DNA of 42,464 nt from an uncultured Lentisphaerota bacterium. GTDB taxonomy: Bacteria; Verrucomicrobiota; Kiritimatiellia; RFP12; UBA1067. Location of the stretch: assembly GCA_900320225.1 (NCBI GenBank), contig ONRL01000060.1, positions 1 through 42,464 on the forward strand. Direction: 5' to 3'. The position numbers and the translations under genes were made by a program. The notes below the pieces were generated by a model, which was not told the origin of the DNA, did no database searches, and saw nothing but the letters and a program-made list of their open reading frames with translations. Below, piece by piece: positions 2,602-39,487 of this stretch. Numbering within the stretch: the first letter of the stretch is position 1; each line of letters starts with the position of its first letter.

Positions 2602-5200
2602 CGCGCGCCGCTTCCGCGTTCCAGGCTGAGACCGACAGCTTGAACGGCTTGGCGGGATGCGACACCGTCACCGTCTTCGACTCGCCGGGCAGGAGCGAGA
2701 ACCAGTTGTCGGAATAGAACGAGGGGCGCAGCGGCTTTCCGTCCTCGCCGGTCAGGGCCAGGCGCGTGAGGAACGCGATCTTGTCGCCCGTGTTCGTCAC
2801 GGTCACGCGCAGCGTGCCCGCCGCGTCGGATGTCTGGACTGCCAGCGTCGTCCTGGGCAGCGCGGACAGCGACTCGAATCCCGCCGTGCACGGGCCGGTC
2901 AGCGCGTCCGGCGTCTTCGGATTGTACTTCTCCGGCGAACGCCAGTAGAACGTGAACGCGATCTCGCGCCCCGCCTCCCGCACGGAGAGGCGGATGAAGT
3001 GCGGCTTGTCGAGCGGCGGGAACTCAATCTTGAACGCCTCCACGCACCGTTCGGCGGGCACCGTGACGGACGCCGCCTTCTCCCACACCTTGCGGGATTC
3101 GAAGTCGTAGACGACAGCCGCCACCTCCACGGCGCGCGGCTCGGTCAGGTCGTTCGCGAGGCACACCATGTCGTCCAGGTAGTCATACTGCGCGTGGAGC
3201 GGCTCCAGCGCGTTCTGCGTGGCAAAGAGCGCGGGCGTCGGCTCCAGCGAATAGTCCCACCCATACGCCACCACCTTCGGCAACGGCACGTTGTTGTACC
3301 AGTACAGGACACCCGTCCCCTTCTCGTTCCGCACGCGGTTCCACACTTCCCAGATCGCGCGCGTGGCGTGGTAGTCGAGCGCCTGCGAGCGGCGGCAGTA
3401 GTCCTCCAGCGACGTCGCCTCGCCGTAGCACTTCACGAGGTCGTCGTGCACGGTGACCGACTTGTAGAAGTTGTTGCCGTCGCGGTAGGCCCACGCCTCG
3501 CGGTTGATCGGCCACAGGTCTTTCTCCGGCAGCACCTCGCGCAGGCATCCCGCCGTCGGCAGCACGGCCGTGCCGTATTCGGGGTTGAAGCCGTAGACGC
3601 GGCTGCCGCGCGGCGAGGCCGTGTCGTCGTAGTAGCGCATCGGGTTGAGCGAGTAGTAGGGCGAGCCGTCGTGCACGCCGTCGCACTCGCTCTGCATCAT
3701 GTAGCTGCGCGTGCCGTCCAGACGCTCCAGCAGCTCGCGGATGCCGTCCACTTCCGTCGACTCGTTGGAGCAGACGTAGTGGCAGATCGAGGCGTGGTGG
3801 CGGGTGCGCTTCACCTGGTCGGCCACGCACGAGAGGTAGAGCGCCGCGTCGTCGGGATGTGCCGTGTCGCCTGTCATGAAGAACTCCTGCCACACGAGCA
3901 GACCCATCTCGTCGCAGAGGTCGTAGAAGCGGTCGCTCTCGACGATGCCGCCGCCCCACAGGCGCACCATGTTCACGCCCTGCTGGCGCGTGAGGCGCAG
4001 TTCCGCCTCCATGCGCGCGTCGTCCGTCCGCAGCATCGCCTCGGGGATCCAGTTCGTCCCGCGGATGAAGATGCGCCGCTTGTTGATCCAGAACTGGCGC
4101 GCGCCATCCTTCCCCGACTGGTCGCTGTACGCCTCGCGCACGCCGAAGCGCCGGCGCAGCACCTGCTCGCCGTGGGCCGTCTTCGCGCGGCAGACGAGCG
4201 TGTACAGCTCGGGCCGTCCCTTGTTCACCGGCCACCAGAGGCGCGGGTTGGCGAGCGTCCCCTTGAAATGGATCTCGCGCCGCTCGCCGCGGTGGAGCTG
4301 CACCTCCTGGTGGAAGCGGAGCGGCGTTCCCTCCACCTCGATCTCCAGCGTGCCCTTCGCCTTGCCGCGGAACAGCCACCGGTCGCAGTTCGAGTTGATC
4401 GCCTCGACGGAGATGTCGAGCTCCGCCGACTTCAGGTCGTCCGACAGCTTCGTGCGCACGAACGGCGCGTCCAGGCGCACGTCGCCCGTCGCGAAGAACA
4501 CGATGTCCTTCCAGATGCCCGTGTTGCGGTCGCGGATGCCGTCGCGGAACGTGAAGTCCCACCCGATGCTCATCAGCATCGTCACGTTACGTCCGATCAG
4601 TCCGTCGCCGCCGTTGGCGTACTCGGCCATCCCCTTCGTCTTCCACTGGCGCGTGTCGCCGGGGATGTCGAGCGGATAGACCTTCACGGCCAGCACGTTG
4701 CGCGCGCCCGGCTTCGCGAAGAGGCTCACGTCCACCGTCTGACACGCGAACATGCCGGACGGAAACGCCACCATCTTGCCGTTGAGCCAGATCTCGGCGC
4801 GGTAGTTGATCCCCTCCGGCCGCATCCAGACGCTGCGCCCCTTCCAGTCCGCCGGCAGGTCGAACTCGGTGCGGAACCACGCCGTGTAGTAGTTGCGGTT
4901 GCCGTCCCCGAGGTCGGGGATGAGCTTGTCCGACTTGCGGTTGTTGAGCCCCCAGTAGGGTTCTGGCAGCTTTCCGTTCCGCACGAGCGTGTCGAGCACC
5001 GTCCCCGGCACCTTCGCGGGCATCCACGCGGCGGCGTCGAAGCCGGGCGCGGACACCTTCTCACCCGCGAGCGCGAGCGCGTTCGTGCCGTTCAGCATCC
5101 GCCATCCATCGCGCGGCACGACATCCGCCGCTGCCGTCCCGCCAACGGCCAACAGCACCGCGCCGACGCTACCAAGCACAATTTGCAGAACTCTTTTCAT
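2582..5200 (-). CDS. Secreted GH2 glycosidase, exo-beta-glucosaminidase-like
   Basis: 872 residues. Residues 1-24 are a signal peptide. Then come the GH2 sugar-binding jelly roll (YYTAWFRTEFDLP, IWLNGKMVAFPSG), the Ig-like domain, and the TIM barrel (NMVRLWGGGIVESDRFYD, LLVWQEF). The candidate general acid lies in CSNES (E480). The candidate nucleophile is E541 in GFNPEYG, placed like the nucleophile of exo-beta-D-glucosaminidases (CsxA type), and NTGIWKDIVF also fits that branch. Beta-mannosidase activity is the alternative. The ATG at 5200 follows GAGGA and lies 8 nt after the response regulator stop, so it is the third gene of a kinase-regulator-glycosidase operon. Its 3' end overlaps the convergent gene by 20 nt. 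Confidence 0.85.
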   Translation of the reverse strand: MKRVLQIVLGSVGAVLLAVGGTAAADVVPRDGWRMLNGTNALALAGEKVSAPGFDAAAWMPAKVPGTVLDTLVRNGKLPEPYWGLNNRKSDKLIPDLGDGNRNYYTAWFRTEFDLPADWKGRSVWMRPEGINYRAEIWLNGKMVAFPSGMFACQTVDVSLFAKPGARNVLAVKVYPLDIPGDTRQWKTKGMAEYANGGDGLIGRNVTMLMSIGWDFTFRDGIRDRNTGIWKDIVFFATGDVRLDAPFVRTKLSDDLKSAELDISVEAINSNCDRWLFRGKAKGTLEIEVEGTPLRFHQEVQLHRGERREIHFKGTLANPRLWWPVNKGRPELYTLVCRAKTAHGEQVLRRRFGVREAYSDQSGKDGARQFWINKRRIFIRGTNWIPEAMLRTDDARMEAELRLTRQQGVNMVRLWGGGIVESDRFYDLCDEMGLLVWQEFFMTGDTAHPDDAALYLSCVADQVKRTRHHASICHYVCSNESTEVDGIRELLERLDGTRSYMMQSECDGVHDGSPYYSLNPMRYYDDTASPRGSRVYGFNPEYGTAVLPTAGCLREVLPEKDLWPINREAWAYRDGNNFYKSVTVHDDLVKCYGEATSLEDYCRRSQALDYHATRAIWEVWNRVRNEKGTGVLYWYNNVPLPKVVAYGWDYSLEPTPALFATQNALEPLHAQYDYLDDMVCLANDLTEPRAVEVAAVVYDFESRKVWEKAASVTVPAERCVEAFKIEFPPLDKPHFIRLSVREAGREIAFTFYWRSPEKYNPKTPDALTGPCTAGFESLSALPRTTLAVQTSDAAGTLRVTVTNTGDKIAFLTRLALTGEDGKPLRPSFYSDNWFSLLPGESKTVTVSHPAKPFKLSVSAWNAEAARVTTISR

Positions 5201-5208
5201 CGCATTCC

Positions 5209-5937
5209 TCATTTCGGTGGCACATAACGGTACCCCACACGGTAGACGGTCTCGATGCACACGCCGTCGCGACCGAGCTTCGCGCGCAAACGGCAGATCG
5301 CCTGGTCGATTGAGTGCGTGGTTCCGAAATACGCCTCGCCCTCCCATAACACCTTCAGCAGATCGTCGCGGCTCACCACCTCCCCCGGCCGGCGCGCGAG
5401 ATGAGACAGGATCTTGTACTCGTTGATGAAGAGATCCTTGACGCGCCCGCGCGCATCGATCAGCTTGAGCCGGTTCGCGTCCACGCGGAACGACGCGAAC
5501 GAGAAGTCCCTTCCCTCGGAGATGTCTGCCGCCGCAGATGGCTGAGCCGCAGAGGCCGACGTGGCGGCATTCTGCCCTGCGCGCCGCAACGCCGCCGACA
5601 CGCGCGCGAGCAGCTCGTCGCCGTCGAAGGGCTTCTTCACGTAATCGTCGGATCCCAAACCAAGCCCCAGCACGACATCGGACTTCTCGCCCTTCGCCGT
5701 GAGCAAGATCACCGGTAGCGCGGCGTCCGTGCGGCGGATTTCCCCCAGCACCTCGTAGCCGCTCTTCTTCGGCATCATCACGTCGAGCAGGAGCAGGTCG
5801 GGTCGCTTCTGCGCCACTTGCGCGAGCGCCTCCTCGCCGTTGACGGCGAAGCGCACCGTGTGCCCCGCGCCCCGCAGGAGCGTCCTGAGCACGCTCCGCG
5901 TGGCGGGATAGTCCTCTGCCACCAGGATATCAGCCAT
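5209..5937 (-). CDS. OmpR-family response regulator
   Basis: 242 residues. The receiver domain spans residues 1-120 with acidic pocket E8/D9, phosphoacceptor D52 (LLLLDVMMP), the switch threonine in ILLTAKGE and the lysine in VKKPFD. A 25-residue Ala/Ser/Gln-rich linker follows. The C-terminal winged helix (residues about 150-242) has the family's INEYKILSHLARRPGEVVSRDDLL and VYRVGYRYVPPK. It should bind DNA when phosphorylated by the neighbouring kinase. The start at 5937 overlaps the kinase stop by 8 nt, so the two are translationally coupled. Its stop is 8 nt from the GH2 gene, suggesting the pair controls that operon; this is inferred. Confidence 0.93.
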   Translation of the reverse strand: MADILVAEDYPATRSVLRTLLRGAGHTVRFAVNGEEALAQVAQKRPDLLLLDVMMPKKSGYEVLGEIRRTDAALPVILLTAKGEKSDVVLGLGLGSDDYVKKPFDGDELLARVSAALRRAGQNAATSASAAQPSAAADISEGRDFSFASFRVDANRLKLIDARGRVKDLFINEYKILSHLARRPGEVVSRDDLLKVLWEGEAYFGTTHSIDQAICRLRAKLGRDGVCIETVYRVGYRYVPPK

Positions 5938-7579: not shown

Positions 7580-10567
7580 TCACTGAAATGCGATTTTCCT
7601 GAAGTCCGCCACGGTCTTCACCGGGCCAAGGTAGTCGTCGCCATGCGCCGAAAGACCAACCGCCTTGAAATGCTCTTTGCCGCACTTTATCTTCATCCGC
7701 TGCTCCGGTGGCAAGTCATCCTCCACGCCCGTGCCTTTCGTCTCCACCACGAAATACAGCCGTTCGTCCCCGTCCTTCTCCAGTACCACCGCCCAGTCGG
7801 GATTGTAGGTGCCGAGCGGCGTCGGGATCGTGAACCAGCTGGGCAGCTTCGCGAACAACTTCACGTCCTCAGACCGGTCGAGGTCTTCCGCGAATTTCCG
7901 CTCCACCTCGGAATCAAAGAGAGCACAGTCGTAAAGACCGCGATTGGGCGTCGCCTCGAGATTTCTCGCGTCGTCGAGATATCCGATGATGGCCTTGTCG
8001 GCATCCTCGAAGAGGGATTGCAGCCAAACATCTGCGTCGGGAAGCCTCGTGTACTTGATACCGGCCACCATCATCTGCGCCAGCACGCCGCGAACAATCT
8101 TCACGGCGCCCTCCATGAACATCTGCGGGTTCTTGCGTATGTCGCCCGCACGCCCGCTCTCCAGCAGAATCCGCGCCGCCGTCCTGCGCGTGAGCGCGGT
8201 CTCGTTCTGTAGATAACCCACGATGTCCGGACATGGCATCTCGCCCAGTTCCACCGCCGTCTGCGCCCCCATCTTCACGTCCACCACGCTCACGCCGTCT
8301 TCCCCATAGCGCAAACTCCCCTTTTCATACGCGAAAAGCGGCTTCGTCACCACGAACTTCGTCCTGTCCTTCATCGCCTCCACGCACTTCTCGACCAACT
8401 CCTCCGTATCGACGCTCACGCGGTAGGACGTCTTGTACTTGATCTTGTCCCAAAGGTTCTTGAATTCAGGCGAGAGAAATCTTTGTTTGTTCAGGACGAG
8501 CTTGTGCGGCTTGCGTGGCTTCTTGACCGCATATCCGCCCACGATCTTCGCCAGCTCCTTGACTATCGCCGCCTTGATGGGTTTGAACTCTTCGTCCACC
8601 TTCACGCGCTTCGCCTTGAGCGCCGCGCGCAGCCTGTCCTCGACCTTACCCTTCGGTGTGATGTAGCCGCACGCCACAAGACCGTCGAAAACTCTGCCGC
8701 TCCCTTCCGTCCCCAGCGGATGCCTCTTCCCCGTCGGATCAGACACGGGGATGTACGCGAACGTCTCGCGCGTAACGATGCCGAACGTGATACCGGTGTC
8801 CTCCTCGATTTCCCTCTGGAGGTTCTCAGCAAAATTCGCAAAACTCTCGTTCGCCATCACCGTAAGACGGTTCACGCCGTCCTCGCGCACGCGCTCTCCC
8901 GACTGGTTGACGCAGATTCGCAACCCCCGTCCGATCATCTGCCGCCGCCTCATGTCACTGGAAATCTCGTTCAGCGTGCAGATCTGGAATACGTTCGGGT
9001 TGTCCCACCCCTCCTTCAGCGCAGAATGCGAGAAGATGAACCGCACCGGCTCGTCGAAGGAGAGAAGCCGTGTCTTGTCCTTCATGATCAGCTCGTAGCC
9101 GCGTTCTGCGTTGGCGCGCCCCGCATCGTTTGACTCGCTCGTATCAACGCTCCGTCCCTTCTTGTCGATAGAGAAGTAGCCGTTGTGAACCTTTTCCGCG
9201 TCGCCCGCCTTGAGTCCCAATGCGGCGAACTGCGGTTTCACGGCCATCTCGGCGTAGATTTCCTCGAACCATTCCGCATACTTTCCGTTGTACGCCCTGC
9301 CGTCCTCGCCGTAGCGCCGGTAGCAGTCCACTCGGTCGATGAAGAAAAGGCTCAGCACCTTGACGCCCTTGGCCCTGAGGAGCAACTCCTTTCGCAAGTG
9401 TTCCTCCACCGTTCTGCGCATCTGCTCTTTCTTCAAGGCGTCCGCCTCCGCGTTCCCCGCCGCACCTCCAATTCGCAGCACTTCCGGCTTCGACGTGAAT
9501 GTGAGGTATTCGCCGCCCTTCTCGCAACCGATGTCATCGACAATGTACCCCTCGTAGATGTCACGCATCCCGGACTTCTTGTGGAGGTTTTCGCCGCTCC
9601 TTACCTTGACGGTCTTGCGCGCCACCTTGCCGCCCTTGTCTATGTCCATTTCGACTCTCGCCGTAATCGCACCGCCCGCATTGTCTACCGAGACGAGACG
9701 GAAATATGCCGTATTGTGGCTGTCCGCAACCGTGAGCTCGGCCACCTCGATTTCCTTGACGAGTTTCTTCTCCATTGCGTCGATCGAGTCGAGCCGGTAG
9801 ATGAGTACGTTCACGTCTTTCTTGCGGTGCGTGGCTGAGTAGCGCAGCTGGCAGAGCGGCCCCAACGTCGCCATCGCCGCCTTCGACTTCTCCGTGCCGT
9901 CCACGCTCTGGGGCTCGTCCACGATCACCACCGGATGACATCCCGCGATAAAGTCGATGGGACGCCCCATCATCTTGTCGTTCTCGCGGTGGATGACGTT
10001 CTCCGAGCGGATGAACGACTGGATGTTGATGACCATGATCTGGATCGTGTCCGACACCGCGAAGCTGCGCACTTCGTTGAGCCGCCCCGAATCGTAGGCA
10101 AATGCGTCGTAGACGGGATTTCCGTATTGTGCTGCGAAATGCTCCTTCATCAACGCAAGCGAGCTCATCACCCCCTCCTTGATGGCGATGGAAGGCACGA
10201 CTACGATGAACTTGATGAAACCGTAGAGGCGGTTCAACTCGAACACCGTCCGCAGATAGACGTATGTCTTGCCCGTACCCGTCTCCATCCACACGCAGAA
10301 CTGCATCTGGCGCACCGACTCGTCGTCGCTCGGCGCGAGGCCGTTCCCCATCTGCACCTCGCGCACGTTCTCGGCAACCTGTTCTGGCGAAAGCCGCAGT
10401 TCGTTCGCGTAGGCCGCCGTCGTCCCCGACGCGGAGAACTCCTCGGGCAACGCTTGAACGGTGAAGTTCCCGGCCAACTTCTCCTGCCCCTTGAAGATGC
10501 CCGTCGCCGACGCGATCGCCTCGCGCTGGAAGTCGAGATCCGGTTCGAATTTGAGCGTTCCGTTCAT
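7580..10567 (-). CDS. res: Type III restriction enzyme, Res subunit
   Basis: 995 residues, normal length for Res. The N-terminal superfamily 2 helicase motor has Walker A in METGTGKT (near residue 97), motif Ia IVVVPSIAIKEGV, and motif II as VDEPQ (DEPQ variant). The second RecA lobe carries FIFSHSALKEGWDNPNVFQ and MIGRGLRI. The C-terminal nuclease is PD-(D/E)xK type: NPDWAVV (D924) and VVETKGTG (E942, K944). Res needs Mod and cuts DNA after ATP-driven translocation from two unmethylated sites. Its ATG overlaps the mod stop (ATGA), so the two are coupled. The motor and nuclease motifs are intact, so the enzyme is probably active. Confidence 0.95.
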   Translation of the reverse strand: MNGTLKFEPDLDFQREAIASATGIFKGQEKLAGNFTVQALPEEFSASGTTAAYANELRLSPEQVAENVREVQMGNGLAPSDDESVRQMQFCVWMETGTGKTYVYLRTVFELNRLYGFIKFIVVVPSIAIKEGVMSSLALMKEHFAAQYGNPVYDAFAYDSGRLNEVRSFAVSDTIQIMVINIQSFIRSENVIHRENDKMMGRPIDFIAGCHPVVIVDEPQSVDGTEKSKAAMATLGPLCQLRYSATHRKKDVNVLIYRLDSIDAMEKKLVKEIEVAELTVADSHNTAYFRLVSVDNAGGAITARVEMDIDKGGKVARKTVKVRSGENLHKKSGMRDIYEGYIVDDIGCEKGGEYLTFTSKPEVLRIGGAAGNAEADALKKEQMRRTVEEHLRKELLLRAKGVKVLSLFFIDRVDCYRRYGEDGRAYNGKYAEWFEEIYAEMAVKPQFAALGLKAGDAEKVHNGYFSIDKKGRSVDTSESNDAGRANAERGYELIMKDKTRLLSFDEPVRFIFSHSALKEGWDNPNVFQICTLNEISSDMRRRQMIGRGLRICVNQSGERVREDGVNRLTVMANESFANFAENLQREIEEDTGITFGIVTRETFAYIPVSDPTGKRHPLGTEGSGRVFDGLVACGYITPKGKVEDRLRAALKAKRVKVDEEFKPIKAAIVKELAKIVGGYAVKKPRKPHKLVLNKQRFLSPEFKNLWDKIKYKTSYRVSVDTEELVEKCVEAMKDRTKFVVTKPLFAYEKGSLRYGEDGVSVVDVKMGAQTAVELGEMPCPDIVGYLQNETALTRRTAARILLESGRAGDIRKNPQMFMEGAVKIVRGVLAQMMVAGIKYTRLPDADVWLQSLFEDADKAIIGYLDDARNLEATPNRGLYDCALFDSEVERKFAEDLDRSEDVKLFAKLPSWFTIPTPLGTYNPDWAVVLEKDGDERLYFVVETKGTGVEDDLPPEQRMKIKCGKEHFKAVGLSAHGDDYLGPVKTVADFRKIAFQ

Positions 10568-12594
10568 ATCGTCCTCACCGATTCGACGCCAGCTGACTTC
10601 AGGGTCGTGAGTGCGTTCGCCTTGTCCTCGTCCGAGGCGAAACCCGTCTCGCGGAACACCGCCGACCAGGGGAGTGCCGCACTTTTGCGCGTCTGCGCCA
10701 GAAGCGCCATCTTCTCAGCCACCTCTACTGTGATCTTCGCATCGAGGCACACGAACAGCTCCCCTCCGTTCACGATGCGAATCACGCATTCGCCGACGGC
10801 GTGCTCTGCGACCTCGGCAGTGAGCGGGATGTTCGACTTGAGCAGCACCTCGACAAACAGATCCTCAGCAGTGCGTCCCAGCAGTATGTTGTCGGCGGCG
10901 TTCTGAAGCTCCAGTTCAAGGTCCGCCGCGTTCGGGTTCCACGCCACCACGTTCGACGTGTCGAGTTTGTACACCCTGAATCCAACGTCGGGCTCGGCAA
11001 CTGGCGCGTCCACGCCATTGCCGAGCTGAAGTTGGGACGCCGCCTCCCGGTTGCGTTCACGCACAAATGCAAGAACTTTCTCCCCCGCGCGCCTAATCCG
11101 CTCCTTCCCGATTTCACAAAGTGTGTGAGGTAACTTTAACGAGTCGCAAAATTTGATTCCTAGTTCTATGGTTTCTCTGGCATTCACATCCGCTTTTTTT
11201 AGGGATGCATCAAGATCTTCAGGGATTTGAATGGCGATGAATTTACGTCTTGAAACATTTTCCCCTGAAGCGTTCAGACGCATAATCGCATCAGGGAAAG
11301 AACTTGATCCAGAAAATAGATCAAGAATAATATCATCGTCCCGTGTTGTTATTTTCGCGAGGAATTCGCACAGCGATGTTGGTTTAGGGTAATCAAACAC
11401 CTTAGCACCCAGGAGAGATTCAACTTCATCCGTTCCGTTCTTTGTGCTTCCAACATTCTTAAGAACAGTTGGAGGATTTACAACAGACCTGTCTTTTTCA
11501 TACCGGAGAATTCCCTTCTCGTTAAAGTAGAAGGACTTTACTAGTTGTCCTTTAGAATCATACGTCTCCTTCCCATCAAAAATCGACCTCATTTGAGCCG
11601 CCATGCACCACCCAGCTGAAAGGACAACATCTTCTGCAAGTTTTCCATCCTTGCATACCATTCGACCTGAAACTAGCGTCGTCGATTCCGAGCCACCCCA
11701 AGTTCCGCTTAACTCTGTTCCGTTAGGAGCATCCCATCTCGTTCCTGCCTTGAACTCGAAGTCAAAAGCTGGGTTCTTTCGTGATATCTTCTTGAGTGCG
11801 GAATGTTCTATCACGCCATCTCCACCCTTGAAGTTTGGAACCTTGGTCTTATCCCTGAAATAGCAGATAACATATTCATGAGCCCTTACAAAATGGCCCG
11901 CCTGTGTTCCTGTTCCTAAATCCCACACCAATTGAGCAACAAAGTTATCTTCACCAAACACCTCATCACATAGTTTTCGAAGACTTGCAGCCTCGTTATC
12001 GTCAATTGAGATGAAAATAACCCCGTCGTCTCGGAGAAGGTTGCGTGCAACGAGAAGCCGAGGAAAGAGCATGTTGAGCCAGTCCGTATGGTAGCGGCCG
12101 CTTGTCTCCGCATTGGCGCGGAGCTTGCGCCCATCAGAATCGACCTGGCCCGTCTGCTCCTTGTAGTTCCGGATCGAGTCGTGGAAGTTGTCGGCATAGA
12201 CGAAATCCTTTCCGGTGTTGTAGGGCGGGTCGATGTAGATCATCTTCACGCGCCTGTGGTACGCGCCCTGTAGGAGCTTCAGCACTTCAAGGTTGTCGCC
12301 CTCGATGTAGAGATTCCCAGTCGTATCCCAGTCTTTGGACTCCTCACGGCACGGACGCAACGTCCCCATCGACCGCGCCCGCGAGAACGCCCGCGCCTCC
12401 TCCTTGCCGTTCCAGATGAAGCTGTAGGAGGCCTTGCCCGTCTCCACCGCTTCGCCGAGGCAGGACTTCAGAACCTCAAAGTTGATCTTTCCCTCCCGCA
12501 CCGCCTCGGGGAACAGCGCCTTGACGGCCGCGACATTCGCCGCCGTCTCGTCCCAGCTCCCGCCGTCCATCTTTTCCATGCTTTCCGCCATCAT
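10564..12594 (-). CDS. mod: Type III modification methyltransferase, Mod subunit
   Basis: 676 residues from the ATG at 12594, chosen because AAGGAG lies 4 nt upstream; the frame stays open to 12669 without a better site. It is a beta-class N6-adenine methyltransferase: catalytic motif IV DPPYNTG (D122) comes before the AdoMet motif DLFSGSSS (D425), with the target recognition domain between them. It methylates one strand of the recognition site and sets specificity for Res. DNA for residues about 190-490 is clearly AT-rich, while both ends are GC-rich, suggesting the specificity part was exchanged by recombination. A leader of about 375 nt with several hairpins may precede it. Confidence 0.94.
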   Translation of the reverse strand: MMAESMEKMDGGSWDETAANVAAVKALFPEAVREGKINFEVLKSCLGEAVETGKASYSFIWNGKEEARAFSRARSMGTLRPCREESKDWDTTGNLYIEGDNLEVLKLLQGAYHRRVKMIYIDPPYNTGKDFVYADNFHDSIRNYKEQTGQVDSDGRKLRANAETSGRYHTDWLNMLFPRLLVARNLLRDDGVIFISIDDNEAASLRKLCDEVFGEDNFVAQLVWDLGTGTQAGHFVRAHEYVICYFRDKTKVPNFKGGDGVIEHSALKKISRKNPAFDFEFKAGTRWDAPNGTELSGTWGGSESTTLVSGRMVCKDGKLAEDVVLSAGWCMAAQMRSIFDGKETYDSKGQLVKSFYFNEKGILRYEKDRSVVNPPTVLKNVGSTKNGTDEVESLLGAKVFDYPKPTSLCEFLAKITTRDDDIILDLFSGSSSFPDAIMRLNASGENVSRRKFIAIQIPEDLDASLKKADVNARETIELGIKFCDSLKLPHTLCEIGKERIRRAGEKVLAFVRERNREAASQLQLGNGVDAPVAEPDVGFRVYKLDTSNVVAWNPNAADLELELQNAADNILLGRTAEDLFVEVLLKSNIPLTAEVAEHAVGECVIRIVNGGELFVCLDAKITVEVAEKMALLAQTRKSAALPWSAVFRETGFASDEDKANALTTLKSAGVESVRTI

Positions 12595-12982: not shown

Positions 12983-13062
12983 GCTCATTCCCTCGCCGGA
13001 ATCAAGCCCTAGCGCATAGTATTCACTCTACATACAGCAAGATCGCACTTGCAAAATGGTGA

Positions 13063-13091
13063 TTGACGGATCTACGCCAATGGCGTATAAT
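13063..13091 (+). promoter_or_regulatory. Sigma-70-type promoter of the toxin-antitoxin operon
   Basis: TTGACG (13063-13068), a 17-nt spacer and TATAAT (13086-13091) form the best canonical promoter in the window. The -10 ends 6 nt before the ATG at 13098, predicting a leaderless toxin message. Confidence 0.75.
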
Positions 13092-13097
13092 TACGGC

Positions 13098-13427
13098 ATG
13101 ATTTTCGTAGAGACCAGTTTGTTCACACGACGCATTGTCCAGGTTATGGACGATGACGCATACGGTGAACTGCAAGGTTACCTGACCGAACATCCTGATG
13201 CTGGGCCAGTTATCCCCGGGTCAGGAGGCGTGAGAAAGATCAGATGGAGTGGTTCTAGTAGAGGTAAGCGCGGAGGCTCACGCTTGATTTACTATTGGGA
13301 CAATGGCAATCAAATCCTGATGTTGTATGTCTACCTGAAAAGAGAACGAGAGAACCTAACCCCAAACCAGATTTCAATGATGCGAGAAATTGCAAAGGAG
13401 TTCAAAAATGAACAAGAAGAACTTTGA
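13098..13427 (+). CDS. RelE/HigB-family toxin
   Basis: 109 residues from the ATG 6 nt after TATAAT; an upstream in-frame ATG at 13056 lies ahead of the promoter. The fold signature is RelE-like: GVRKIRWSGSSRGKRGG followed by RLIYYW, then a hydrophobic strand ILMLYVYLKRE and an acidic tail. HigB-type toxins are ribosome-dependent mRNA endonucleases. The antitoxin overlaps its 3' end, the toxin-first order typical of HigBA. The DNA is more AT-rich than its neighbours and lies beside a type III restriction locus, consistent with acquisition as part of a defence island. The family is clear; the exact subfamily (HigB2-like) is my judgement. Confidence 0.88.
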   Translation: MIFVETSLFTRRIVQVMDDDAYGELQGYLTEHPDAGPVIPGSGGVRKIRWSGSSRGKRGGSRLIYYWDNGNQILMLYVYLKRERENLTPNQISMMREIAKEFKNEQEEL

Positions 13428-13725
13428 GATGCTACTTGAGAGCATGCGAGAAGGCGCGCAAATCCTGCGTGGTGAGAAGGCTCCATCCCGTCGATTTGTC
13501 GTTGACAAAAAAGAAGATGTACAGTTTGTGCGCCAGACGTTTCATGCTAGTCAAGACGCCTTTGCAAAGTTCATGGGCGTAAGCGTCGGCACATTGCGGA
13601 ACTGGGAACAAGGGCGACGACGTCCAACGGGAGCCGCCCGTGTACTGCTCACGATTGCGTTGCGGCAGCCAGAACTGTTTCGCGCTGCCGTCCAGGAAAA
13701 CTGTCCAGAACTGTCTTTCTGCTAA
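13408..13725 (+). CDS. HTH antitoxin, HigA-like
   Basis: 105 residues. The ATG at 13408 follows AAAGGAG by 7 nt and overlaps the toxin end by 20 nt, giving coupled translation. A DNA-binding helix-turn-helix lies in SQDAFAKFMGVSVGTLRNWEQGRRRP (XRE class). The N-terminal 45 residues (KNFEMLLESMREGAQILRGE) would bind the toxin. As in other type II systems, it should neutralise the toxin and repress the promoter at 13063-13091. Its stop is 9 nt from the stop of the convergent mfd gene, with no visible terminator between them. Confidence 0.9.
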   Translation: MNKKNFEMLLESMREGAQILRGEKAPSRRFVVDKKEDVQFVRQTFHASQDAFAKFMGVSVGTLRNWEQGRRRPTGAARVLLTIALRQPELFRAAVQENCPELSFC

Positions 13726-13734
13726 TCCTCGCCG

Positions 13735-15513
13735 CTACAACGTCACCATATCACGATCCTCTAGCTGGAGGATGCGTTTAGCAAGAGCGGCGATGCGTTT
13801 TTCCGGCGACGGCGCGGAAAGCTGCTCGGCGAACGCCGGCCCGGCCTTGCCGACGCGGTAGAAGACGGCGCGGCCCTTGCGCACGTCGATGCGGCGGATG
13901 CCTGCCTGCGCGCATAGGACGCGGAGCTCCGCGAGCTTCACAAGGCGCATCGCCGCCTTCGGGAGCTTGCCGAAGCGGTCCGCCAGTTCGCCCTTCAGAC
14001 GCGTGACGTCCTTGAGCGTGGACGTCTCGGCGAGACGGCGGTGGAATTCCATGCGCTGTCCTTCATCCTCGACGTAGTCGTACGGCAGGCAGGCACCGGA
14101 CGCGTCGGCGTCGTCCGACCCCGGCGAGAAGTCGAGGAAGTCGAAATTGAGCGTCACGTCCACCACGTCCGGTACGTGTTCGCCCTTGAGACGCGCAACC
14201 GTACGCTGCAGGAGCTGGCAATAGAGCTGGAATCCCACGGCGGCGATGTGGCCGCTCTGCTCGCGTCCGAGCAGATTGCCCGCGCCACGTATCTCGAGGT
14301 CGCGCATTGCGATACCGAACCCCGCGCCGAGCCCCGCGTGGCGCTTCAGCGCGTCGAGGCGCTCGCGCGCCTCGGCGTCCACGAGCCCTTCGGCGGGCAG
14401 CAGGAAGAAGGCGTAGCCCTGGCGCGCCGAACGCCCCACGCGGCCGCGCAGCTGGTAGAGCTCGGCGAGGCCGAAGCGGTCCGCGCGGTCCACGAGGATC
14501 GTATTCGCGCGCGGGATATCGAGACCGCTCTCCACGATCGTCGTGCACAGGAGCACGTCCGAACGCCCTTTCGCGAACGCCTGCATCTTGGCGGAGAGCG
14601 TGGCCGACGGCATCTGCCCGTGCGCCACCTCGATGCGCGCGTCGGGCACGAGCGCGCGCAGGCGCGCCGCCGCCTTCTCGATCGTCAGCACGCGGTTGTA
14701 GAGGTAGTAGACCTGCCCCCCGCGCGCAAGCTCGCGTGTGATGGCGGCGCGCACGGTCTCGTCTGAGTCACGCACGATTTTCGTCTCCACCGCCACGCGC
14801 TCGCGCGGCGGCGTGCGCAGGAGAGAAAGATCGCGCGTGCCCGTCATGGAGAGGTAGAGCGTGCGCGGAATCGGCGTGGCGCTCATCGTCAGGACGTCCG
14901 CCGTGGCGCGCAGGCGCTTGAGGTGTTCCTTGTGGCGCACGCCGAAGCGCTGCTCCTCGTCGATGACGATGAGGCCGAGGTCGTGGAACTGCACCTTCGC
15001 GGACAGGATGGCGTGCGTGCCGATCACGATGTCGGTGGCGCCGGAGAGCAGGCGTGCACGCGTGCCTTTCTTCTCTTCGGCGCTCTGGAAACGGCTCATC
15101 GTCTCAATGCGCACGGGCGTGTCGGCGAAGCGCGCGAGGAAGGTCTCGTAGTGCTGTTCCGCGAGCACCGTGGTGGGCGCGAGCAGCGCGGTCTGGCGTC
15201 CGTTCATCGCGGCGATGAACGCGGCGCGCATCGCCACCTCGGTCTTGCCGTAGCCCGCGTCGCCGCACACGAGACGGTCCATCGGCTTCGACTGCGCCAT
15301 GTCGTTCTTCACGTCCTGGATCGCGTGCGCCTGGTCGTCGGTCTCCTCATAGGGGAACGCCGCCTCGAACTCGGCGACGCCCGGCGCCGTGACGTCATAC
15401 GCAAAGCCCGGCACCACGGCGCGGCGCGCCTGCGTCTCGAGGAGCGACGCCGCGAGGTCCTGCACCGCGCGCTGCGCGTCCGCCTTGTCCTTCGTCCAGC
15501 GCGCCATCCGCAT
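13735..15513 (-). pseudogene. mfd: Mfd transcription-repair coupling factor, 3' part (frameshifted)
   Basis: About 590 residues in a different frame from the 5' part. It holds the relay region (ARWTKDKADAQRAVQDLAASLL), the RecG-like translocase with Walker A in CGDAGYGKTEVAMRAAF, motif II DEEQRFGVRHKE, SATPIPRT, the second RecA lobe (QLRGRVGRS) and the C-terminal TRCF domain. Mfd removes stalled RNA polymerase and recruits UvrA. Compared with known Mfd, the roughly 34 residues joining the polymerase-interacting domain to the relay helix are missing, and the frame changes at the same point (about 15505). An ATG at 15513 or 15507 could restart translation. Either the gene is broken or the assembly is wrong here. 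Confidence 0.8.
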
Positions 15514-16759
15514 ACTCGATCGTGAACACTTCGCTGCGCGTGCCGCCGACCTCGACCTCGGTGGATCCAAGGAACCGCCCGATGCCGTAGTCCACATGCA
15601 CCACGTACTCGCCTGGCTCGATGTCGAGCGATTCGGAGAGACGCTGTCCCGTCACGCCCGCCACCTGCGCGCGCGGCGCGCGCCGCCGGTGCGCGAACAC
15701 GCGGTCGCCCCTCGTCACGACAACGAGTCCCGGCACCTCGAACCCACCGCCGAGCTCGCCGTCCTCCACCACGAGCGCGCCCCTCTTCTCCGCCGCCGCG
15801 AGATGCGCCGCGAGACGCGCCCGCGCCGCCTCCAGCAGTTCGGGGCTGCGCGCCGACTCCGCGCCGAGCTCCGCGAAGCCCGGCAGCGGCGAGCTCTGGA
15901 ACGTCCCCTCCGGCACGCCCGGCGGCGCGGGCATCCCCGAGAAGATCTGACGGAAATTCACGTTTCCGAGAAGCGAATGGGAAAGCCCCGTGTAGGAGTT
16001 GTGGTCCACCCAGAGGATCGTCGCGCCGGCGGGCAGGATGTCGAGGAGACGCGTCTCCTCGCCGCTTGGCACGGTGACGGGCGACAGCTCCGCCGAAGGC
16101 ACGTTCTTCACGGAGGTCTGTAACGCGGGATCGAATTCGCGCAGCGACTCGAGGTCCTCGCCGAAATACTCCGCGCGCACGGGACGCGCCGCGCCGGGCG
16201 ACCAGGCGTCGAACACGCCACCGCGCACGGCGTACTGTCCCACGGCCGTCACCTCGCCCGCGCGCTCGTAACCGGCGGCGGCGAGACGCGCCTGCACCTG
16301 CGAGAACGCGCTCGCGGCGTCGCCCGGCACGAGACGTACCGTCGCGGCATCCACGGCGGCGGCGTCCGGCACGCCCGTCAGAAGCGCCGCGCTCGGCGCC
16401 ACCACGACGAGCGGATACGGACGCATCCGCCACGCGCCGAGGGCCGCCGACACCTTGAGGCGCGCGGCCGTGGACGCCGGGTCGTCCTCGAGCGGCGGCG
16501 GGAATGAGAGCGCGCGCACGCCGCATTCGCCCTCCAATACGCGCAGATCATCCGCCACCGCATCCGCTTCGGGCAGACCCGGCGTGACCGCGAGCACGAA
16601 CGGCGCGTCCTCCGCGCGCGGCGTGCGCGCAAGCGCGGCGGCGGCAAACGCCGTGGCCGAACCGGAGAACGAAGGCAAAGCAAGCCTCGGGGACGGGCTC
16701 TCCGCCCCCTCCCAAAAGGCCTTCTCAAACAAGGCGAATCTCTTACTCGCCTTCAGCAC
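15395..16759 (-). pseudogene. mfd: Mfd transcription-repair coupling factor, 5' part (frameshifted)
   Basis: The first 418 residues or so are Mfd: UvrB-homology modules, then the CarD-like RNA polymerase-interacting domain (PGEYVVHVDYGIGRFLGSTEVEVGG) up to FTIEYADGA at about 15505. Beyond that the frame is junk until a stop at 15395. The normal continuation (a LYVPV...LGG-like stretch) is absent. The GTG at 16759 was chosen as start because it lies 7 nt after an extended -10 TATACT; a TTG at 16765 is only 1 nt after that box. Together with the 3' part the protein would be about 1000 residues, shorter than the usual 1100-1150. Confidence 0.8.
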
Positions 16760-16766
16760 GCCCAAT

Positions 16767-35467: not shown

Positions 35468-35701
35468 CTAGCAATACCTCCCGAAATCCGCCAATGTCCT
35501 AAGCTCGGGCACAGCCTCCAGGGGGATTGGCTTGCCGAATTTGGCCTCAGTCTCCATCACGAGGCGGAGGTGGTTGACGCTGTCCCACCCCTCAATCGAC
35601 CCAAACGCCGTCTCGGGCGCGAGCGCCTCCACGCCCACGCCGAACACGTCCGCCGCCAGTTCAAGAAACGCCTGCGGCAACGCCTTGTCGTCTGTCGTCA
35701 T
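35468..35701 (-). CDS. Acyl carrier protein-like
   Basis: 77 residues, normal for an acyl or peptidyl carrier protein. The phosphopantetheine site is S41 in GWDSVNHL, with Val where fatty-acid ACPs have Leu. Helix I (QAFLELAADVFGV) and helix III (LEAVPELRTLADFG) fit the four-helix fold. The ATG at 35701 has GGAGAG upstream. No ligase, ketosynthase or acyltransferase gene is adjacent, so it is a lone carrier; D-alanine or other specialised acyl transfer is as likely as fatty acid synthesis. It lies 41 nt after the secreted unknown gene and just before the heptamer repeats. Confidence 0.88.
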   Translation of the reverse strand: MTTDDKALPQAFLELAADVFGVGVEALAPETAFGSIEGWDSVNHLRLVMETEAKFGKPIPLEAVPELRTLADFGRYC

Positions 35702-35741
35702 GCTCTTTTCTCTCCGATCTCGCCTTGTTGAAATCTCCCCG

Positions 35742-36365
35742 TCACCGAATAAAATCAAAAATCATACTTCGGTACGGATTACCGACTTGGTTGGCATAAT
35801 TGGTCGCTGCGTTTCCCATTCCCGCACCCGCCGCCGCCATTCCTGCAAAGACCTTAAACGCCATGCCGACCTCAAGATCAGGCATCTCGTAATACTTCAA
35901 TATGGCGGTGTTAAGAACATTCGTCTCGGGCACACCCCCAAAAATCTGCATGGCGCAGAGATTGTTGGTGCACACATCGTATGCCGAAGTAAAATTATTG
36001 TCAACGGAATATACGCTGGCAAGGAGAAGTCGCCCAGTCCAAAATTGCCATGAGTTCGTCATAGTATCTGTCCAGTTAACAACATTTGATATACATTGAA
36101 GTTGCCCGTCTATTGCCTGTCCATCTGCGGAGTCCAGAAATTGCTGATAATGGATTATCGACCGAATAATCTCAGCATCTAGTTTCATCAACAAATTTGT
36201 AGATTGCACGGATCTGTTTATATTGCTTACAAATGCCGCGTCCAGAAGATTTTCAGACGACACCAAGGCAAGGCTGGCCTCATTTTCCAACTCAGACACA
36301 GTATTCCAACCATACACCGTAGTGGAGCATATTACTCCCAAGCACACCATAAGTGATTTTCTCAT
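35742..36365 (-). CDS. Small secreted protein of unknown function
   Basis: 207 residues, not recognised. Residues 1-21 look like a signal peptide (SLMVCLGVICSTTVYGW). The middle is mostly helical, low in charge and rich in Asn, Ser and Thr. The C-terminal part has a small-residue helix (FAGMAAAGAGMGNAA), possibly membrane-active. The ATG at 36365 has AGGAGG upstream and overlaps the preceding stop as TAATG, so it is translated together with the TSP3/caspase-like protein. The DNA is AT-rich like the 3' end of that neighbour, which suggests both arrived together and may work together; this is inference. Confidence 0.7.
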   Translation of the reverse strand: MRKSLMVCLGVICSTTVYGWNTVSELENEASLALVSSENLLDAAFVSNINRSVQSTNLLMKLDAEIIRSIIHYQQFLDSADGQAIDGQLQCISNVVNWTDTMTNSWQFWTGRLLLASVYSVDNNFTSAYDVCTNNLCAMQIFGGVPETNVLNTAILKYYEMPDLEVGMAFKVFAGMAAAGAGMGNAATNYANQVGNPYRSMIFDFIR

Positions 36366-39300
36366 TACCAATCCTCCTTTGGCACTTCTACCTTTTTCTT
36401 GAAAACACCTTTAAAACTGAACTTGAAATAAACATATTTTTGCCCTTTAACAATTGCGCAAGCATTCCACGCTCGGTTATTTGCATTCGCCGACATCCAT
36501 GCGTCTACGTCACCCCTGGTGTTACGGTTGATACGCCACGAGCGCACGATGCGAGTTGGAATTCCACTAGCGTCACCAGGTGCGACATACGCATAGCCAA
36601 GTAATATTGACGGCCCAGTAGACTCCCATGAATATCCAGGAGAAAAAGAATGTTCTGCCCCGCTGTAGTTACCATTATAGTCATTGATATCAAGCACCGA
36701 ACACCCCGCTATGATAACAACGTCAAGATCCCTATCCCAACTACCATGTGCCAACAAGGGGGTAAAACCACCCTGAAGTGTGTTATTATAATGGTTGCCA
36801 TGCCCAGAGAAATAAAAGAAGTCTGCCTGATTCGTAATCTGTCTCTTCCTCGCGTCTACACCCCAATAGGTTGCCGTCACCACTTCACATCCCGCAGACC
36901 TCATGTACGACACAGACGGCACAGAATTGGGCGGTATTGAATCAAGCGTACTCGTATCATCCAGTGTCGCCTTACCTCGGAATTGACTCCCTAGTTCCGA
37001 GAACGCCTCGCTATCTGCATAATTCTGGACCGATGTTTGCACAATGTCCATCCACGCCATTTCATTCACGCCATCATCATCTTGTGCCGGTAACAGACCA
37101 AGTGCCCGCACTTGGGTAAACGACCGCGAAAGGCGAATCTCAGACTTGTTCCCCGCATTGGCGAATGATGCGCCGTCAAGCGAAATAGATGTGCCCTGCG
37201 GACATGTACCGGAAGTCCTGATTGTAATGGAATCACCAAACTTCTGCCGACAGGCCGAGAGATCCGACATCTGGGGCGTCACCGTCACCTTAATCCGCAA
37301 CTCCTCGTTATCCAGTATGACACGCGAAACATCCAGTTCGGACCAGTCTGGATCGTCTGGTGAGCAAACCGCCACATCGACCTTGTATGCCGTTAAAGTC
37401 GCTACCAGGCCCCCACCGGTAAACGTACTACCTGAAAGGTGAACGCCTAACAAGTTATCGGGGTCAAGCACGCTGACGGACTGGGACACGTTAACGGCGT
37501 TGAGCGTGTAGTCATAGTCAGGCCCCTGGGGGCGGTTCGTCGATGCGTGCGCGAGACGCACCTCGTAAGAGTACCCCGGCGTGAGCATGGCCGTGCGCGT
37601 CTCGCACGCGCCGTAATTGGCATTCACCCAGGCGAACGGACGGGGCGAATTCGTGCTGCGGTTCACGACCGGCACCACCGTCAGCTGGTACTTCTCCGAA
37701 TGGCTGGAACTGTGGTCGCCGAAATAGAACTGCACTGGTGTACGGCTGTTCGGCTTCCCCTCGTCCGTTGCGTCGGCGGGATCACTGTTCTGCGCAATCT
37801 CCACGCCATCGTTCACGCCGTCATTGTCCGTGTCGAGACTGCCGGGATTCGTCCTCCACGCACATTCATCGGCGTTCGTAAGACCGTCACCATCAGAATC
37901 GATGTCCGCGTCGTCGTCGGTGCGTTCGGTCTGGCTGTTGTGCGTGGTCGGGTCGAAGCCGTACCGGGATTCCCATCCGTCGTCCATCCCGTCGCCATCC
38001 GAATCCGGCTGGAAAGGGTCTGTCCCCAAGGCCGCCTCCTGCGCGTTCGTGAGGCCGTCAAGGTCGGGATCGGCGGATGCATCCGTGCGCGGGTCGCCCG
38101 TGTTGGCGGAGAGAGGATCCATGCCGTGCGCGGCCTCCCAGCCGTCGGGCAGCCCGTCGCCATCCGTGTCGGCGCAGAGCGGATTGGTGCCCGTCCCGAA
38201 ACGGTAGGAGATCGTCATGCCGCTCGTCACGCTCCCCGACACATCTTCCGCCACCAGCAGGTCGGGCGTTCCGCCGAAACCATGAGCGCCGATGATCGCC
38301 GATGTGCCGTCGAAGCAACTGTCGAGGTAAAGATAGCGCACATGCACCGTATCGGGTTCCGCCTCCGACACGGCCAATTGAAAGGACATCTGGTCGAAGG
38401 TGAGGTTCGCCCACCCCATCGGGTCCATCATGTCGCGCCACTCGGCAACGAACCACCGTCCCTGCACATCTGAGACAACGCCCGCGCGCAGCTGGGAACC
38501 CGCATACCCCATTGGCATGAACATATATCCGTACGCGGAAACGGCGGCATTGGCGGTGTTGTAGATGGGTGACGGCGAATAAGGGGAGGCATACGCCGGA
38601 GCGGCCGACGTGGCAGTCCCCAACTCCAGAAATTCCGCAATGCCGGCAAAGTGCACAGCGACATTGGTGGAAAGGTGGCCGGCCAGTTCGACGGCGAATG
38701 GCAAGTTTACAACCACGTATGCTGGACAGTAGGCGTACGGCTGCGTACCAGCGAGGACGTTGGAAACGGACGAAAGGTCAAAGACAGGAAACGTCGCCCC
38801 GTACTGGACAATGGACGCCTCCTGTCCGTCGTCATATCCATCCCCGTCCGTGTCCACCCGTCGGGGATTCGTGCCGAGCGCGCGCTCCTCCGCGTTCGAG
38901 AGGCCGTCACCGTCGTCGTCATCGCCGTCCCCCCCCAACCCGTCAAAGGCCCGCATCGTGAAAAATGCAATCGGCGGAAGTGTTTCATCCGGCATCCGTT
39001 CCTGTCCGATCTCAACGCAGATGTTCGTTTCGCCGGCAACCGTCTCCGCCCACCCAAGAGGAAGCACAGCCGTGTCGGCAAGGTTGGTGCGCATGTAGAA
39101 CTCGATGAAAGGCGGCGCAAGAAAAAGGTCTGATGGCCACTCGGCGGAAAGCCACACCGACGTGGGCGTGGTCGAGATGTCTGTAAAATACGGGGCGGAA
39201 GCGGCAAGAGTGCCGCTTCCCCGATGGGGAGCGGTTCGGGGAAGCGACACTCCTGTCGCTTCCTGTGCGGACGGGGAATTGCGCAGAAGCTTGGTCGCGC

Positions 39301-39487
39301 CATCGTGGCCGAAAACCAATACCAACACGACAACAACAATCTTGCCCAAAGGCGAGGCATGCCGCCATTTTCGCATGGCTTCGCGCGGCAAACCCACGAG
39401 CTGCCGCGCGCGAAGACACGCAAGCGCCGCCGCCACCAAGAGGGCGGCAGGCAGCACCAGCAACCATGTCCAGCCACCATTAATCAC
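36365..39487 (-). CDS. Membrane-anchored TSP3-repeat protein with caspase-like C-terminus
   Basis: 1040 residues from a GTG at 39487 that overlaps the restriction-methyltransferase stop (GTGA). Two N-terminal hydrophobic helices (residues 7-25 and 49-60) anchor it. Residues about 70-92 come from an in-frame palindromic insert. Calcium-binding thrombospondin type 3 repeats (DTDGDGLPDGWE type) lie at about 182-222 and 434-569. The C-terminal domain carries FFYFSGHGNHY (H896) and VVIIAGCSVLD (C929), the His/Cys dyad layout of clan CD caspase-like peptidases. DNA encoding residues after about 660 is AT-rich, unlike the rest, as if the effector domain was swapped in. A surface protease or a defence effector are both possible; activity is untested. 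Confidence 0.75.
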   Translation of the reverse strand: MINGGWTWLLVLPAALLVAAALACLRARQLVGLPREAMRKWRHASPLGKIVVVVLVLVFGHDGATKLLRNSPSAQEATGVSLPRTAPHRGSGTLAASAPYFTDISTTPTSVWLSAEWPSDLFLAPPFIEFYMRTNLADTAVLPLGWAETVAGETNICVEIGQERMPDETLPPIAFFTMRAFDGLGGDGDDDDGDGLSNAEERALGTNPRRVDTDGDGYDDGQEASIVQYGATFPVFDLSSVSNVLAGTQPYAYCPAYVVVNLPFAVELAGHLSTNVAVHFAGIAEFLELGTATSAAPAYASPYSPSPIYNTANAAVSAYGYMFMPMGYAGSQLRAGVVSDVQGRWFVAEWRDMMDPMGWANLTFDQMSFQLAVSEAEPDTVHVRYLYLDSCFDGTSAIIGAHGFGGTPDLLVAEDVSGSVTSGMTISYRFGTGTNPLCADTDGDGLPDGWEAAHGMDPLSANTGDPRTDASADPDLDGLTNAQEAALGTDPFQPDSDGDGMDDGWESRYGFDPTTHNSQTERTDDDADIDSDGDGLTNADECAWRTNPGSLDTDNDGVNDGVEIAQNSDPADATDEGKPNSRTPVQFYFGDHSSSHSEKYQLTVVPVVNRSTNSPRPFAWVNANYGACETRTAMLTPGYSYEVRLAHASTNRPQGPDYDYTLNAVNVSQSVSVLDPDNLLGVHLSGSTFTGGGLVATLTAYKVDVAVCSPDDPDWSELDVSRVILDNEELRIKVTVTPQMSDLSACRQKFGDSITIRTSGTCPQGTSISLDGASFANAGNKSEIRLSRSFTQVRALGLLPAQDDDGVNEMAWMDIVQTSVQNYADSEAFSELGSQFRGKATLDDTSTLDSIPPNSVPSVSYMRSAGCEVVTATYWGVDARKRQITNQADFFYFSGHGNHYNNTLQGGFTPLLAHGSWDRDLDVVIIAGCSVLDINDYNGNYSGAEHSFSPGYSWESTGPSILLGYAYVAPGDASGIPTRIVRSWRINRNTRGDVDAWMSANANNRAWNACAIVKGQKYVYFKFSFKGVFKKKVEVPKEDW
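39197..39263. repeat. In-frame palindromic insert, family A copy 1
   Basis: Two hairpins in tandem: GGAAGCGGCA-AGAG-TGCCGCTTCC (39197-39220) and GGAAGCGACA-CTCC-TGTCGCTTCC (39240-39263), each a perfect 10-bp stem. They differ by compensated changes, and together they form a larger inverted repeat. The element is coding (SLPRTAPHRGSGTLAAS) near the N-terminus of the TSP3 protein. Confidence 0.88.

Follow-up and report, generated by a model that had tools for sequence, protein, structure and literature searches.

Mosaic composition of a Type III mod gene points to exchange of its recognition domain with an AT-rich source

The window, that is, the whole stretch of 42,464 nucleotides analysed here, comes from an uncultured Lentisphaerota bacterium and carries a Type III mod gene. 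We conclude, with a probability of roughly 0.87, that this gene is a mosaic whose middle has been replaced by recombination with a mod from an AT-rich bacterium or plasmid. The composition of the gene is mosaic, its centre and its ends have separate relatives, and like swaps are seen in other mods.

A compositional block inside mod

The mod gene (10564..12594, minus strand, as are all features of mod and res given below) encodes a Type III beta-class N6-adenine DNA methyltransferase subunit, assigned from Pfam (N6_N4_Mtase, 5e-27), PADLOC (MTase_III, 2e-179) and the PDB (6k0w, 2e-56; EcoP15I Mod, 4zcf, 2e-49). Adjacent to it, downstream and with a 4-bp overlap, lies res (7580..10567), encoding the restriction subunit (PADLOC REase_III, E=0), with a helicase part and a C-terminal endonuclease domain (Pfam ResIII, 6e-13; RE_endonuc, 7e-35). 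Both the adjacency of MTase_III and REase_III genes and this Res architecture are Type III hallmarks. Such systems methylate N6-adenine asymmetrically within a 5-6 bp site, and Res cuts 25-27 bp away. The mod ORF is open up to 12669 and residues are numbered from there (701 residues). Since an AAGGAG lies upstream of two ATGs at 12594 and 12591 (residues 26 and 27), and residues 1-25 show no conservation among relatives, the predicted start codon is likely one of these two.

Mod has the beta-class order of DPPY at 147, a variable target recognition domain (TRD) and motif I (FSGSS) at 452. The catalytic DPPY (residues 147-150, 12220..12231) was unchanged in 19/19 Mods compared. FSGSS is a variant of FxGxG that recurs in many relatives. 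The wider SAM-binding motif I, DLFSGS (residues 450-455, 11305..11322), here reading DLFSGSSSFPDA, is slightly unusual; in a motif tally of 89 Mods, relatives mostly carried DFFSGSATT (DFFSGSATTAHA) or DFFAGSGTT. This variant may possibly alter Mod activity. An AlphaFold model of Mod had a mean pLDDT of 66, and its best structural match by Foldseek was EcoP15I Mod (E 2e-33), confirming on the predicted model an EcoP15I-like overall fold. Its quality is low across the TRD (pLDDT <50), and domain edges were therefore set by alignment to EcoP15I Mod. The latter (PDB 4zcf, PMC4490356) shares the beta-class motif order, with the TRD between motifs IV-VIII and motifs X, I-III, but is only ~23% identical to the window's Mod.

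In 500-bp windows GC falls from ~0.60 to 0.45-0.46 over 11001-12000 and is ~0.60 again on either side. A two-change-point fit to GC3 gave 0.83 for residues 1-201, 0.40 for residues 202-538 and 0.78 for residues 539-701, with a log-likelihood gain of 63.6 compared with at most 12.7 in 200 permutations. The AT-rich block thus fitted (11056..12066) is equally evident at four-fold degenerate sites, where GC is 0.875, 0.315 and 0.771 in the same order. Its steps are sharp, one near residues 202-212 and the other near 515-538. Codon positions 1 and 2 stay at a GC of ~0.4-0.6 throughout with no step matching GC3; the effect is therefore synonymous, and amino-acid composition is ruled out as its cause. 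By comparison, res is evenly GC-rich (GC3 0.81 overall, with each 150-codon block at 0.77-0.85), and GC3 is 0.85-0.94 in most of the other large genes near mod. The initial annotation, which had placed an AT-rich segment at 11125-12025 between GC-rich flanks and next to a GC-rich res, and had called for sliding-window GC and codon analysis, is borne out on each count; its coordinates fall within the fitted block. Its estimate of the extent, about residues 190-490, covered the TRD; the fitted block begins ~55 residues after DPPY.

The block is wider than the TRD, spanning roughly residues 205-520 and holding the last motifs before it and motif I after it, whilst DPPY lies in the GC-rich part. 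It exceeds the TRD homology block (about residues 245-415, 11425..11937), which is delimited by identity to other TRDs and by swap edges, by ~150 residues, and for these non-TRD parts no donor-like relative was prominent among the relatives compared. EcoP15I Mod has its TRD at aa 263-384 and its MTase domain at 62-262 and 390-516 (PMC4490356), and alignment to it would put the structural TRD of the window's Mod at roughly residues 285-395. Each edge of the block falls in or beside a well conserved stretch. On the left, inspection of the third-base string places the shift within YHTDWLNMLFPRLLVARNLLRDDGVIFISIDD (residues 191-225, 11995..12099; HTDWLNM..DGVIFISIDD), whose conservation among 88 relatives reaches 0.95 (residues 191-200) and 0.81 (211-220). 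On the right, GC-richness resumes at EIGKERIRRAGE (residues 518-530, 11080..11118; GKERIRRAGE), with a conservation of 0.78 at residues 521-530 versus 0.06-0.27 directly before in the same relatives. Diverged mods would be expected to recombine in stretches of this kind.

Elsewhere in the window, a second AT-rich stretch (35700-37300, GC down to 0.42) covers the 3′ end of a gene for a large TSP3-repeat protein (36365-39487) and the next ORF. Between mod and mfd, on the other strand, a small RelE-like gene and an HTH (MqsA-like) gene (13056-13725, GC3 ~0.5) likely form a toxin-antitoxin pair beside the restriction system. The mfd gene for the transcription-repair coupling factor (13735-16765) looks split between two ORFs that overlap in different frames; part of the expected protein is absent where they meet, and either the gene is broken or the assembly is wrong there.

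Separate relatives of the centre and the ends

A Mod encoded on a plasmid of Peribacillus frigoritolerans matches the TRD (residues 256-420) at 59% identity over the full length of the domain. Outside it, the alignment covers just 59 of 171 N-terminal positions and next to nothing at the C-terminus. The best PADLOC Mod models belong to different subfamilies (PDLC03635 for Peribacillus, PDLC03634 for the window), as the best Res models also differ (PDLC03651 and PDLC03647), and the Res proteins align over 52 residues only. On these alignments, then, the window's TRD is closest to that of a Mod from another subfamily with mostly unalignable ends. The plasmid mod is itself AT-rich, with a flank GC3 of 0.24 and 0.14. 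Further TRD relatives come from Xenorhabdus, Colwellia, Enterococcus and Levilactobacillus, all in AT-rich mods. A TRD 48% identical is found in a genome of the window's own phylum (G464), whose mod, like the window's, combines a GC-rich N-terminal part with an AT-rich centre. Among the 11 Mods of this TRD group these are the only two with a GC-rich N-terminal part; the other nine have AT-rich ends.

The ends of Mod are closest to those of a Victivallaceae locus (identity 0.68 for the N-terminal and 0.45 for the C-terminal part; Res 55%), whose TRD is unrelated to that of the window. A family search did not return a close allele of the window's mod, the best match being 54% over the N-terminal part and 42% over most of the protein. 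Likewise, the best TRD match in the collections searched is the 59% given above, and a near-identical donor was not found there. A phage donor was dismissed, as 50,697 phage records and the viral contigs gave no TRD match.

Like exchanges in other mods and the breadth of the AT-rich centre

Two mod-res loci, one from a draft genome of the window's genus and one from a draft genome of another genus of the same family (L110 and L111), share ~95% DNA identity over 10 kb. The likeness is broken mainly at the recognition domain, where the largest unaligned stretch (574 bp in mod, 3892-4465 of L110) is AT-rich, with GC down to 0.42-0.43. Shorter gaps lie near 2150-2386 and 5112-5577, the latter beyond the Mod protein match, and one end of mod aligns as a separate 647-bp piece at 91% identity. 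The 10-kb match itself reflects either contamination between the drafts or a transfer that moved the locus recently. In the Mods that these two loci encode (L087/L088), the compared end regions are 100% and 95% identical in protein and the TRDs 20%. Geobacillus jurassicus and G. zalihae give 98% and 97% for the ends and 17% for the TRD, and several more pairs across phyla have near-identical ends with unrelated centres. The left edge of the swap falls at residues 241-251 in 13 pairs; the right edge falls at 442-449 in 7 of the 13 and at 476, 516 or 559-562 in the rest.

These pairs, together with the different relatives of the TRD and the ends, support the recombination that the initial annotation had proposed, in which specificity is swapped within a conserved catalytic frame. 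The comparison of alleles that it had suggested gave alike ends and unrelated centres in L087/L088 and elsewhere, though the collections searched yielded no close allele of the window's mod. It had also named, as evidence against exchange, related mods that share both the composition profile and a conserved centre. The profile is indeed shared by most GC-rich mods; the centre is not conserved (TRD identity of the window's Mod to aligned relatives 0.11-0.38), because it is the variable part of mod.

The AT-rich centre was found in most GC-rich Type III mods sampled, in several phyla, and we found no description of this cross-phylum breadth in the open-access literature searched. Among 96 relatives centre GC3 follows 0.10 + 0.45 x flank GC3 and is the lower of the two in 93-100% of mods whose flank GC3 is at least 0.5, and in none is the reverse seen, a clearly GC-rich centre in an AT-rich mod. 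The relative sets were partly picked by TRD-based patterns; mods retrieved via the N-terminal part alone likewise have an AT-rich centre. A second, distant Type III-like mod in the window's own genome (L002, G000:C160:39118-40428) has a similar profile, with a GC3 of 0.75, 0.53 and 0.92.

So common and one-sided a dip is what would be expected if Mod centres were AT-rich for some internal reason, such as codons chosen to aid folding or expression, or relaxed selection on codons in a domain that evolves fast, with no recent recombination. We regard this as very unlikely. The dip is not obligatory, being absent from GC-rich mods such as L063 (centre 0.76), L036 (0.69), L084 (0.63) and L051, and centre GC3 ranges from 0.16 to 0.69 within one TRD homology group; taken together, these data speak for centres imported from AT-rich sources and then slowly adjusted, rather than for an internal requirement, although the one-sidedness of the dip is only partly accounted for. 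A 40-point drop is too big for relaxed codon selection, and real swaps are observed at the same place in other mods. Moreover, the adjacent res genes mostly lack comparable steps: the median change-point gain is 6.1 for res versus 29.2 for mod (Mann-Whitney p = 1.6e-8, which overstates the independence of the data because the genes are related by descent), and in 22 of 28 loci the gain is larger for mod. A general within-gene property of the locus is thus rejected as the cause.

A proposed course of exchange

We propose that the mod of a GC-rich host retained its 5′ part, encoding the NTD and the DPPY half of the catalytic domain, and also its 3′ part, encoding the CTD that contacts Res, whilst the middle would have been exchanged by homologous recombination with a donor mod from an AT-rich bacterium or plasmid. 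The crossovers would lie within short stretches that encode conserved motifs of Mod, one close to HTDWLNMLFPRL..ISIDD and the other close to ERIRRAGE. The incoming piece would carry, besides the TRD, that half of the catalytic domain which holds motif I, so that the enzyme would stay in frame and should still methylate and pair with the same Res. The TRD of Type III Mod directs both modification and restriction (PMC3311624, PMC4490356). With the dimerising, catalysing and Res-holding parts retained and a new TRD in place, modification and restriction would switch target together, the recombined Mod acting at a different DNA sequence with the same Res partner. The window's Mod is probably active and its specificity has probably changed.

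The donor was presumably AT-rich, and we infer that the centre was imported rather than the ends. Direction cannot be read from composition alone, and the block holds catalytic motifs besides the TRD. Both points leave room for a mod that came whole from an AT-rich source, its ends later turned GC-rich by gene conversion or uneven amelioration; we give this course, if anything, slightly less credence than an internal cause of the dip. Uneven amelioration inside one gene would not produce such sharp steps. Furthermore, res overlaps mod and is GC-rich throughout, and the Victivallaceae locus nearest to the mod ends is also among the nearest relatives of res, making a single insertion into a resident mod-res pair the simple course. 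An assembly chimera, in which a GC-rich mod and a second organism's AT-rich mod were fused at conserved motifs in a draft of 351 contigs where the adjoining mfd looks broken, is scarcely credible, since it needs two in-frame joins at functional positions where the two kinds of mod share protein motifs and not long identical DNA, and since named isolates and a complete genome have a like profile (L026 Oscillibacter AP012044, L045, L055, L070, L072).

Import of the centre into a resident mod has precedents. In modA, of the Neisseria and Haemophilus phasevarions, conserved ends, a variable centre and en bloc exchange have been described (PMC3311624), and the DRD of modA12 has 28% GC versus 40% on both sides (Gawthorne et al. 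2012; PMC3311624). The window's mod resembles it in its conserved 5′ and 3′ parts and its unrelated, lower-GC centre, but resides in a different host and has an AT-rich block wider than the recognition domain. It also differs in having no phase-variable repeat tract: no simple sequence repeat tract lies in or before it, so it is not placed among phasevarions and phase variation is rejected. A shufflon or silent TRD cassettes were rejected as well, there being no suitable repeats or inverted TRD cassettes near mod. In Helicobacter pylori, as recounted in PMC3983042 from the work of Furuta and Kobayashi, TRDs move between non-orthologous Type III mods at conserved motifs. Going by that account, the likeness lies in a TRD common to otherwise poorly related Mods and in recombination at conserved methyltransferase motifs; here, however, a Bacillota plasmid carries the closest TRD, and the receiving species, represented by a draft genome, is GC-rich and from a different lineage.

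Exchange of the recognition piece is therefore already known in this enzyme family, and the window's mod adds a clear new example, which helps to show how far recognition pieces spread among bacterial phyla. In this clean case, a restriction enzyme was apparently retargeted by an imported recognition piece whose nearest relative lies in another phylum. Tentatively, and at a little under even odds, we suggest that TRDs form a pool circulating across bacterial phyla mainly via AT-rich hosts and plasmids, and that most GC-rich mods contain an imported AT-rich centre. If so, composition alone could flag shifts in methylation specificity and give them a rough date. The survey suggests that import of TRDs is routine and leaves a compositional mark legible from sequence alone, and thus recent changes in the specificity of a methylome could be recognised even where methylation data are lacking.
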